Positions 29,221 to 45,093 of a stretch of DNA of 45,164 bases are shown here, piece by piece (position 1 is the first letter of the stretch; every line of letters starts with the position of its first letter). The position numbers were made by a program, and so were the translations under genes. The notes under the pieces were generated by a model. It had not been told where the DNA came from and searched no databases. It saw nothing but the letters and a program-made list of their open reading frames with translations. This stretch comes from Longimicrobiales bacterium (lineage in GTDB: Bacteria > Gemmatimonadota > Gemmatimonadetes > Longimicrobiales > RSA9), in the NCBI GenBank assembly GCA_035764935.1, contig DASTYK010000185.1:1-45164 (forward strand), given 5' to 3'.

Positions 29221-29436
29221 GGTGAGAGGCGGGCCCGGGGCCCGGGGCCCTGGGCCTGGGCGGGGGAACGAGCTGGACGGGCCGGCGGGGCCGTCTGGGC
29301 GAAATTGGTATCCGCCCACATCCCGCCGTTCAGACGCCCCGACGGCCCCAACGGCCCCAACGGCCCGCCTCTCCACCGCGAAACCCGGGCCCTGGGCCCT
29401 GGGCCCTGGGCCCTGGGCCCCGGCCCGCCTCTCACC
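29221..29436. repeat. GC-rich nested inverted-repeat element between two acyl-CoA dehydrogenase genes
   Basis: Outer arms of 15 bp match perfectly (29221-29235 and 29422-29436). Inside are further GGGCCC-rich complementary stretches, a 7-bp tandem, an inner 9-bp pair (29287-29295 and 29341-29349), and a degenerate third copy of the outer arm at 29362-29377. The right arm covers the stop codon of the upstream dehydrogenase, so the whole 216 bp can fold in the mRNA just after translation ends. It may act as terminator/processing structure or be a small mobile repeat. No coding function is likely. Confidence 0.8.
29387..29421. repeat. GGGCCCT short tandem repeat
   Basis: Four perfect copies of GGGCCCT and one variant copy (GGGCCCC) in a row, inside the right half of the inverted-repeat element. 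Such a 7-bp array is prone to length variation by slippage. Confidence 0.9.
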
Positions 29437-30601
29437 TCAGGATATACTTCGCGATCGTCTGCTTCTGCATGTTCGTGGTACCCTCGTAGATCGTGCCGAT
29501 CTTGGCGTCGCGGTAGAACTTTTCGACCGGGTACTCACGCGTGAAGCCGTTGCCGCCGAAGAGGTCGATGCAGGTCGAGGCGATCTTCTGCGCGGCTTCG
29601 GAGGCGAACAGCTTGGCGATTGCGGCTTCCACGACGAACGGCTGGCCGGCGTCCTTCAGGCGCGCGGCGTTGTAGACCAGCAGGCGGGCGGCCTCGAGCT
29701 GCGTCCGCATCTCTGCGAGCTGGAACTGCACCCCCTGGAAGTCACCGATCGGGTGGCCGAACTGCTCGCGCTCCTGGACGTAGCGCAGCGTGTGGTCGAG
29801 CGCGCCCTGCGCGAGGCCGACCATCTGGGCACCGATCCCGATGCGCCCCTCGTTGAGGGTCTCGATCGCAATCTTGTAGCCCTTGCCGACCTCGCCGAGC
29901 ACGTTGCCCTTCGGCACGCGGCAGCCGTCCAGGATCAGCTCGGTCGTGGACGACGCACGGATGCCGAGCTTGTCCTCCTTCTTGCCGACCGCGAAGCCGT
30001 CGAAGTCGCGCTCGACCAGGAAGGCGGTGATGCCGCGGTAGCCGGCGTCGGGATCGACGTTGGCGAAGATGATGAAGAGGCCCGCCTCGCCGCCGTTGGT
30101 GATCCAGAGCTTGCGGCCGTCGAGCACCCAGTGGTCCCCGTCGTCGCGCGCCCGGGTCTGCAGTGCAAATGCGTCGGAGCCGGAGCCTGCCTCGGACAGT
30201 GCGTACGCGCCCACGGTGTCGGAGGCGAGGGCAGGCAGGTACTTCTCCTGCACATCGGCGTTGCCGTACCGGATGACCGCGTTGTTGACCAGTGTGTTCT
30301 GCACGTCGACGAACACGCCGACGCTCGGATCGATGCGCGACAGCTCCTCGACGACGAGGACGGCAGTGAAGAACGAGGCACCCGCACCGCCCATTGCATC
30401 GGGAATCTCGATACCCATGAGTCCGAGCTCGAAGAGCTGCGGAGCCAGGTCGGCATCGAGGCGCGCCTGCTCGTCCATGTGCATGACGCGGGGGGCGATG
30501 GTGTCTTCCGCGAACTGGCGCACGGTTTCGCGGAACATCTGTTCTTCTTCCGTCAGCACGGTGAGCGGCGGACGAGTAAGATCGGGGAGTACGCTCGACA
30601 T
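29432..30601 (-). CDS. Acyl-CoA dehydrogenase (short/medium-chain type)
   Basis: A 389-aa acyl-CoA dehydrogenase of standard length. The N-terminal helical domain begins at LTEEEQMFRETVRQFAEDTI. The beta-domain carries ALSEAGSGSDAF and LDGRKLWITNGG, the classic FAD/substrate blocks. The C-terminal domain ends in IGTIYEGTTNMQKQTIAKYI, with Glu373 as catalytic base in the short-chain/butyryl-type position. It would catalyse the first step of beta-oxidation in the cytoplasm. The ATG at 30601 has a weak purine-rich site upstream. Its stop lies within the GC-rich repeat; the longer dehydrogenase follows on the same strand but is separated by that element, so co-transcription is uncertain. Confidence 0.95.
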   Translation of the reverse strand: MSSVLPDLTRPPLTVLTEEEQMFRETVRQFAEDTIAPRVMHMDEQARLDADLAPQLFELGLMGIEIPDAMGGAGASFFTAVLVVEELSRIDPSVGVFVDVQNTLVNNAVIRYGNADVQEKYLPALASDTVGAYALSEAGSGSDAFALQTRARDDGDHWVLDGRKLWITNGGEAGLFIIFANVDPDAGYRGITAFLVERDFDGFAVGKKEDKLGIRASSTTELILDGCRVPKGNVLGEVGKGYKIAIETLNEGRIGIGAQMVGLAQGALDHTLRYVQEREQFGHPIGDFQGVQFQLAEMRTQLEAARLLVYNAARLKDAGQPFVVEAAIAKLFASEAAQKIASTCIDLFGGNGFTREYPVEKFYRDAKIGTIYEGTTNMQKQTIAKYILR

Positions 30602-30692: not shown

Positions 30693-30722
30693 CGGCGCCG
30701 CCGGATGACTCCGACGGCGCCG
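30693..30722 (-). terminator. Hairpin at the end of a small minus-strand unit
   Basis: A 12-bp stem with one mismatch and a 6-base loop; on the minus strand it is followed by ATTCCTTTCC. It lies 82 bp after the micro-ORF and 92 bp before the acyl-CoA dehydrogenase start. It could terminate a short transcript or act as a leader attenuator for the dehydrogenase. Confidence 0.5.
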
Positions 30723-30804
30723 TTCAACTGTTACCGCAAGCCCGACGCGATGCCGCGAAGGCAGCCGTCGTCAGATGCGGACAGAGGTGTTCGCTCGACT
30801 CGGC

Positions 30805-30864
30805 TCAGATGCCGGAGCGGCGATCGCTTGCCCGTGCCGGGTTGCGGAAACTGGTACTGGCCAA
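30805..30864 (-). CDS. Putative 19-residue micro-ORF with a perfect long Shine-Dalgarno
   Basis: A TTG-started ORF encoding MASTSFRNPARASDRRSGI, with four arginines. It is preceded at optimal 7-base spacing by the 13-nt sequence AAGGAGGTGATCC, which pairs with the entire 16S anti-Shine-Dalgarno tail. It lies in the 537-bp gap between the acyl-CoA dehydrogenase and the DHp-domain gene. Upstream are a perfect palindrome and promoter-like boxes; a hairpin lies downstream. It may be a leader peptide or a free small protein. Coding status rests only on the ribosome-binding site. Confidence 0.4.
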   Translation of the reverse strand: MASTSFRNPARASDRRSGI

Positions 30865-30865
30865 G

Positions 30866-30878
30866 GGATCACCTCCTT
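30866..30878 (-). promoter_or_regulatory. Full-length (13-nt) Shine-Dalgarno sequence
   Basis: AAGGAGGTGATCC on the minus strand is complementary to the conserved 3' end of 16S rRNA over its whole length, longer than any other ribosome-binding site I noted in the window. It decides the TTG start at 30864. Confidence 0.65.
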
Positions 30879-30984
30879 CGTTGAGTGGACGCAAGGGCGT
30901 GGACGCCGGCGGGCCCGGAGCCAGTGGCTGCTCCCTCCCGCGGTCCGCGCGCCGGCCCGACCTGGCGGCACCGGCTGCGGCCCT

Positions 30985-31002
30985 GACTCACCGCGGTGAG
31001 TC
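30985..31002. promoter_or_regulatory. Perfect 18-bp palindrome (operator candidate)
   Basis: GACTCACCG-CGGTGAGTC is an uninterrupted perfect palindrome. It lies where transcription from the minus-strand promoter-like boxes at 31009-31037 would start, and about 80-100 bp upstream of the plus-strand promoter of the DHp gene, so it could control either side. Confidence 0.5.
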
Positions 31003-31008
31003 GCATGG

Positions 31009-31037
31009 AACGTAACCACGCCGGCCGGATGCTTCAA
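31009..31037 (-). promoter_or_regulatory. Promoter-like boxes reading leftward
   Basis: On the minus strand TTGAAG (31037-31032), a 17-base spacer and TACGTT (31014-31009). The boxes match the sigma-70 consensus only moderately; the spacing is ideal. The predicted start is at the edge of the palindrome. Confidence 0.35.
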
Positions 31038-31138: not shown

Positions 31139-31375
31139 ATGGAAGAGCAGCAGTATCGCGAGGTCGTCGACCTGGTTCGGCGCGTTCGCCATGACGCAAA
31201 CAACCCGATCACGGCCGCACTGGGCCATGTCCAGTTGCTGCTCGAGGATCCGAGCGTGCCGGCCGGCGATACGCGTGAATCGCTCCGCGTGATCGAGAGC
31301 GAGCTGAAGCGACTGATCGATATCCTGCGGCGTCTGCAGAAGGTGCAGTACGATGACGGTGCGTCCGCGGATTGA
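31139..31375 (+). CDS. Free-standing histidine-kinase dimerisation (DHp/HisKA-like) domain protein
   Basis: A 78-aa protein that is almost only a two-helix DHp domain. The first helix carries an H-box-like RRVRHDANNPITAALGHVQL with His18 followed by Asp and Asn-Asn-Pro, as in HisKA kinases (HE/DxxNP). The second helix is ESLRVIESELKRLIDILRRL. There is no sensor, no HATPase domain and no receiver. It cannot be a kinase alone. It may be a phosphotransfer or dominant-negative partner for a kinase elsewhere, or a structural relic. GGAG lies 11 bases before the ATG, and a good -10 box lies upstream. The stop overlaps the -35 box of the gcvH promoter. Confidence 0.75.
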   Translation: MEEQQYREVVDLVRRVRHDANNPITAALGHVQLLLEDPSVPAGDTRESLRVIESELKRLIDILRRLQKVQYDDGASAD

Positions 31376-44527: not shown

Positions 44528-44710
44528 GGATAATCACAGGCAACGTTGCTTTGTTCGCCGTCGTGGGCGATGCGCGCAACGTTGGCTTGAATAATCACAG
44601 ACAACGTTGCTCTGGTCGCGGGCGTGGCCAATGCGAGCTACATTGCCTTGGATAATCACAGGCAATGTTGCTCTGGTCGCGGGCGTGGCCGATGCGAGCA
44701 ACGTTGGCAT
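44528..44710. repeat. 61-bp tandem repeat, three copies, with hairpins at the unit junctions
   Basis: Units begin at 44528, 44589 and 44650, each with GATAATCACAG or a close variant (first base A in the second copy, AGACAA for AGGCAA), and a degenerate fourth start follows at 44711. The end of each unit pairs with the start of the next around a 13-base loop: 44576-44586 with 44600-44610, and 44637-44647 with 44661-44671, ten of eleven pairs each. One G-C pair in the first hairpin is an A-T pair in the second, a compensatory change. Confidence 0.9.
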
Positions 44711-44900: not shown

Positions 44901-45093
44901 CCAGCCTCTGTTCTCCCGGTGCTCCGTGGTAGACCCCAAAGACCCATCCAGCCTCTGTGCTCCCGGTGCTCTCCGTGGTAGACCGAACAAACCCATCCAG
45001 CCTCCGTGCTCCCGGTGCTCTCCGCGGTAGACCGAACAAACCCATCCAGCCTCCGTGCTCCCGGTGCTCTCCGTGGTAGACAAAAAAGACCCA
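44901..45093. repeat. 49-bp tandem repeat, about four copies
   Basis: Units start at 44901 (47 bp), 44948, 44997 and 45046, each with CCAGCCTC, GTGCTCCCGGTGCTC and CGTGGTAGAC or a close variant. Read on the minus strand the core is CCACGGAGAGCACCGGGAGC. Because 49 is not a multiple of three, the array gives three overlapping minus-strand frames of repetitive peptide, which are not real genes. Confidence 0.92.

Follow-up and report, generated by a model that had tools for sequence, protein, structure and literature searches.

A probable stand-alone small-RNA gene with a very long Shine-Dalgarno sequence and a micro-ORF, conserved across Gemmatimonadota

Comparative sequence analysis of an intergenic region from a Longimicrobiales bacterium identifies a stand-alone structured small-RNA gene of a new family that is conserved across Gemmatimonadota. 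Comparison with relatives gives it a promoter region, two 5' hairpins, a 10–13 nt complement of the 16S rRNA tail, a short open reading frame (ORF), three helices, and a terminator. The gene lies in 538 bp of intergenic DNA between a divergent HisKA-domain gene (31139+) and an acyl-CoA dehydrogenase gene (30601-29432). An Rfam search of the window, by which we mean the whole 45,164-nt stretch of DNA that was analysed, returned nothing at threshold, including no tmRNA and no rRNA match, and our literature searches found no description of such a unit. Judged from sequence, the family is new and is unusual in the length of its Shine-Dalgarno sequence (SD) and in its pattern of selection.

Layout of the unit and its spread in the phylum

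The original prediction, made from this DNA alone, had proposed a transcription unit with a promoter, a very long SD, a short ORF, and a terminator hairpin, of a kind that gene callers would miss. A sequence check found all of its named elements in place on the minus strand, and the recurrence of the unit in relatives indicates that it is real; it is also, as proposed, a gene of the kind that callers overlook. Of the tests by which it proposed to be refuted, those on conservation and on the frame were run, and both the SD and ORF and the upkeep of the frame proved to be conserved in relatives. The features of the window are as follows.

31032..31037, minus strand: -35 element TTGAAG, aligning with GGCTTGCGC or GGGTTGC upstream of the -10 element in relatives
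31009..31014, minus strand: -10 element TACGTT; the corresponding position in relatives reads TATCTT, TATCGT or TATACA
Roughly 31002-30693, minus strand: small-RNA unit of about 310 nt
30985..31002, minus strand: 5' stem-loop formed by the palindrome GACTCACCGCGGTGAGTC, with a predicted 7-bp stem and 4-nt loop, beginning at about +1
30901..30947, minus strand: second hairpin, GGACCGCGGG...CCCGCCGGCGTCC, from sequence and predicted fold and visible in relatives
30889..30902, minus strand: conserved box, CGCCCGATGTC in relatives, from the alignment of 30 loci
30866..30878, minus strand: 13-nt SD AAGGAGGTGATCC, complementary to the entire 16S 3' tail
30805..30864, minus strand: micro-ORF with a TTG start, peptide LASTSFRNPARASDRRSGI, and a TGA stop, from the start-to-core distance and the stops in relatives
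30836..30846, minus strand: helix 1, 5' strand, inside the ORF; 4 of 9 pairs changed on both sides
30819..30830, minus strand: core CAAGCGATCGCC, the 5' strand of helix 2, also complementary to the SD and start (GGTGATCNCTTG)
30799..30816, minus strand: hairpin 3, whose loop holds the stop codon; 3 of 6 pairs changed on both sides
30747..30756, minus strand: helix 2, 3' strand GCGGCATCGC, from covariation analysis
30734..30746, minus strand: helix 1, 3' strand, from covariation analysis
30693..30722, minus strand: intrinsic terminator hairpin, from the sequence and terminator-like sites in relatives
29387-29420, 44530-44708 and 44901-45081: tandem repeats in the window sequence

The promoter-like boxes, TTGAAG (31037-31032) and TACGTT (31014-31009), are separated by a 17-bp spacer and have aligned counterparts in relatives, where GGCTTG(C/A) is followed by TATCTT or TATACA. 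The predicted transcription start falls near 31002, so the RNA would begin with the palindrome as its first stem-loop. The palindrome itself is present and perfect over its 18 bp, but its sequence is not conserved among the relatives compared, several of which show another stem-loop there. Stems of differing sequence occupy its place in L008 (GCACCGCG/CGCGGTGC), L009 (CACTGC/GCAGTG), L010, L012 (GCCCGCGA/TCGCGGGC), L013, L021, and L024, and because of these other stems an RNA hairpin is favoured over a protein operator, which is disfavoured; the palindrome is best read, on this comparison, as the RNA's 5' stem-loop. The conserved box (also in L002-L030) lies between the second hairpin and the SD, is partly complementary to the 3' segment (CATCG, TCGGG), and is a possible third pairing partner.

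The SD is unique in the window, where 0.02 occurrences would be expected with up to one mismatch, and a pattern search of the 3.83-Mb genome found it twice. Since the other copy is the 16S 3' end read on the reverse strand, the sequence complements the organism's own 16S tail; the predicted complementarity to the whole tail is exact and unique in the genome apart from 16S itself, and a complement of 10–13 nt is kept across the phylum. Among the 102 units that passed an SD-plus-core screen, which itself selects for SD and core, GGAGGTG was invariant (102/102), ATC was kept in at least 97%, position 13 varied among C, T, and A with no case of G, and the start codon followed at 13 or 14 nt, counted from the SD's first base. 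Typical units read GGAGGTGATC and then, at a fixed distance, a TTG, GTG, or ATG start. Eight of 110 loci failed the screen, and in three of these (L018, L171, L176) the failure was in the core, with the SD kept.

With the 538-bp intergenic DNA as query, matches were found in 48 of 61 relatives, and the beginning of many of these matches coincided exactly with that of the 13-mer (query 262), a motif that had not been supplied to the search. The loci closest to the window's acyl-CoA dehydrogenase belong to Gemmatimonadetes MAGs, which assigns the window to that group. Thirty loci of the unit were aligned. Of 395 Gemmatimonadota genomes searched with a covariance model, 196 carried the unit, with few exceptions as a single copy. 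Within the same order it was present in 107 of 120 genomes (hand count of the listing), and in fewer genomes of other families; these conservation counts are inflated by shared ancestry. Model R1 gave no convincing match in 21 genomes of other groups, including Acidobacteriota and Myxococcota, and matched all four Gemmatimonadota controls.

Translation of the micro-ORF and pairing of the RNA

The predicted 19-codon ORF is present, opening with TTG at 30864 and closing with TGA at 30807-30805, and its frame is kept open in relatives. The distance from start to core was 33, 36, or 39 nt in 100 of the 102 screened units, the two exceptions (L174, L179) having the frame shifted relative to the core. 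The screened units start with TTG (90), GTG (10), or ATG (2), and ORF lengths in relatives range from 16 to 23 codons with any of the three stops; at codon 20, for instance, TAA was counted 24 times, TAG 20, and TGA 29. The dN/dS ratio before the core (codons 2-11) was 1.03 over all pairs and 0.98 over close pairs, against 0.97 in the core and 0.66 to 1.11 in shifted frames, values to be read with the relatedness of the sequences, the shortness of the ORF, and the constraint of RNA pairing on all positions in mind. The least variable codon positions in the ORF were the third; in the core, wobble positions were invariant (GCA in 87/87) and second positions varied (AGC/AAC, GAT/GGT). On these comparisons the act of translation appears to be conserved and the peptide product does not.

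Three helices tie the ORF to itself and to a 3' segment, GCGGCATCGCGTCGGGTTGCGG. They were paired in 95.1% of cells, as against at most 48% when slid, and contain nine pairs with double changes, with covariation of 0.199 versus 0.100 in shuffles (0/500). An alternative pairing of the core with GGTGATCNCTTG, which would cover the SD and start, is kept in 99.7% of cells but is invariant and, being nearly without variation, lacks covariation support; we regard it as a possibility only. It is weaker in families with ATG or GTG starts, and in family f5 the core forms a local hairpin instead, such as ACGGTC-ACCC-GACCGT in L159 (read by eye).

Gene context, alternative explanations, and a proposed mechanism

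The predicted stable hairpin at the end of the unit is present, and a terminator-like hairpin follows the unit in 89 of 101 relatives, compared with 11 in upstream control stretches. Some members of the same family (L003, L006, L012) have the dehydrogenase downstream, and elsewhere the downstream gene varies; convergent downstream genes encode a SEC-C protein (L008), an amidohydrolase (L016), a protein kinase (L144), and ApaG (L150). Because downstream genes vary or converge and a terminator follows, the unit is taken to be its own gene and not a leader. On the other side, the gene at 31139-31375 (+) encodes a 78-aa protein consisting of a HisKA phospho-acceptor domain only, and a similar short protein adjoins the unit in L006 and L012. 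A GGGCCCT tandem repeat at 29387-29420 separates the two acyl-CoA dehydrogenase genes, and near the end of the window lie two longer arrays, at 44530-44708 and 44901-45081, with repeat units of 61 and 49 bp.

Several other explanations of the unit were weighed. The original prediction had offered a leader peptide controlling the acyl-CoA dehydrogenase at 30601, and such an attenuator would agree with the shared downstream gene in L003, L006, and L012; outside that family the flanking genes differ between genomes or converge, with a terminator in between, and we reject this reading on gene context as very improbable. Even less credible is chance, or a stray 16S rRNA fragment. The plus-strand GGATCACCTCCTT is indeed 16S tail sequence, but the Rfam search detected no rRNA homology beyond the 13-mer, which refutes a fragment, the flanks are unlike 16S, and the unit is conserved phylum-wide with covariation; its recurrence across the phylum likewise argues that the 13-mer is not due to chance. 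The prediction's other proposal was a regulated small protein. In a small-protein gene of this kind the unit would be the mRNA of a 16-23 aa peptide carrying the motif [RW]A[SN][DG]R, and the RNA helices would only tune its expression. The kept start, frame, and stop, the phylum-wide recurrence of the core residues RASDR/WANGR, and the exceptionally strong SD would all suit a small-protein gene, but dN/dS is near 1 both in codons 2-11 and in the core, third positions vary least, and invariant wobble positions beside changing second positions fit a constraint on RNA and not on peptide. A conserved functional peptide is therefore unsupported, a functional microprotein is disfavoured by both dN/dS and codon-position variability, and we consider a small-protein gene distinctly unlikely.

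Our best guess, to which we give about even weight for and against, is that the unit acts in trans as a regulatory RNA responsive to ribosome status. 30S subunits would dock via the very strong SD, and translating or terminating ribosomes would melt the helices formed by the ORF, so that the RNA would switch between two forms. In the ribosome-loaded form the 3' segment would be exposed; in the unloaded form the ORF would be paired to that segment, or the core to the SD and start. As the output we would suggest either the 3' segment, once exposed, or the RNA in its ribosome-bound state. An ordinary dual-function sRNA in the manner of SgrS, Spot 42, and Pos19, that is, an RNA that regulates by base pairing, encodes a peptide besides, and uses its SD only for peptide yield, would likewise be an independent sRNA-like unit with an ORF and terminator. 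There are precedents for this, as dual-function sRNAs are known with ORFs down to 15 codons (PMC10339803), and regulation by the Rhodobacter sRNA Pos19 is independent of its peptide (PMC5036791). We nevertheless think it rather unlikely here, as the peptide is not selected and a phylum-wide 10–13 nt 16S complement exceeds what peptide yield would need. Alternatively, the RNA might sequester ribosomes, with a 13-nt 16S duplex holding the 30S subunit, as happens in hibernation or when translation is inhibited, and the short ORF letting ribosomes recycle; the complementarity does cover the free tail in full, with hardly any variation, but a conserved start, frame, and stop would be unneeded for sequestration alone, leaving this an improbable account. 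The unit couples an extreme 16S complement with an ORF apparently conserved for translation and not for its peptide, and does so without being a leader. Structured, nearly single-copy RNAs common to a phylum are usually important, and this combination could be used to test whether an RNA senses the supply of ribosomes or the 16S 3' end.

Units in other phyla and likeness to known RNAs

The motif AAGGAGGTGATCNNNTG was found in 11 of 149 Acidobacteriota, 20 of 141 Myxococcota, and 1 of 97 Bdellovibrionota genomes. Micro-ORF units of the same design account for three of the matches in Acidobacteriota and for most of those in Myxococcota, and stricter patterns also found such units (L248-L254 in Acidobacteriota; L255-L266, L269-L271, L273, and L274 in Myxococcota). 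These analogous units share the 13-nt SD, a TTG or GTG start, and an ORF of mostly 13-24 codons (e.g., LNSLSFRSVEVASS, VSSDCTHTAGEVVSC) and are stand-alone, with a terminator directly visible in several, but their core is GAGGTGGCG or GGTGAGGTGG (GAGGTGG), and model R1 had no match in the Acidobacteriota and Myxococcota genomes searched with it. ORF-to-3' complementarity, assessed by a single pair search in both phyla, was mostly not significant individually, although L249-L254 share one ORF-to-3' helix, in which an end pair shows compensation. In the Bdellovibrionota genome (G941, L275-L279), five copies of AAGGAGGTGATCCTATG precede similar Cys/Arg-rich proteins of 28-43 aa, some with a hydrophobic end, and a complementary CCTCCTTT that precedes could hide the SD; there the motif marks something other than a Gemmatimonadota-type unit.

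Among established RNAs, 6S RNA (RF00013) was rejected, as no match was found in 21 Gemmatimonadota genomes, including loci with the unit, and control genomes did match. The unit resembles tmRNA (RF00023) in being a structured RNA whose short internal ORF engages ribosomes, but carries an SD with a start codon and lacks a tRNA-like domain; tmRNA identity was rejected, with tmRNA absent from the window and found separately above cut-off in 18 of 21 such genomes. Leader-peptide attenuators likewise translate a short ORF inside mutually exclusive RNA helices, whereas the Gemmatimonadota unit has no conserved same-strand downstream gene and is closed by a terminator. With the dual-function sRNAs Spot 42, SgrS, and Pos19 it shares a small stand-alone transcript, a terminator, and a short ORF, and comparative genomics (promoter, terminator, varied neighbours) supports independent transcription; the difference is that its ORF is kept with dN/dS of about 1, its peptide being unselected, and that its 16S complement is kept phylum-wide.

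The closest likeness is to the Caulobacter sRNA CC2171 (RF01867), the best sub-threshold match in several loci, with 26.3, 23.3, and 18.8 bits in L022, L001, and L006 (23.3 bits in the genome studied here) and 22.3 bits in one Myxococcota unit; the best of these falls short of the gathering score of 75 bits. The likeness is one of layout only: the model alignment shows a 13-nt SD, a start codon, an ORF-spanning helix, and a terminal hairpin, with AAAGGAGGUGAUCC followed at equal distance by the start codon (AGUG) of a short potential ORF and a long-range helix joining that ORF to a segment before the terminator. The CC2171 consensus begins AAAGGAGGUGAUCCAGUGUCU, and one Gemmatimonadota family reads AAGGAGGTGATCCAGTGTCT, which is nearly CC2171's string, but the consensus is without the conserved core GGGCAAGCGATCGCC of the Gemmatimonadota unit. 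We tentatively raise the idea, which we hold to be more doubtful than the regulatory role itself, that the RNA of Gemmatimonadota, the units of Acidobacteriota and Myxococcota, and CC2171 might be branches of a single ancient class of RNAs that dock ribosomes, with a brief act of translation, and not the peptide, as the signal, each a free-standing ribosome sensor. The unit described here may also help to explain an uncharacterised sRNA family of Caulobacter.
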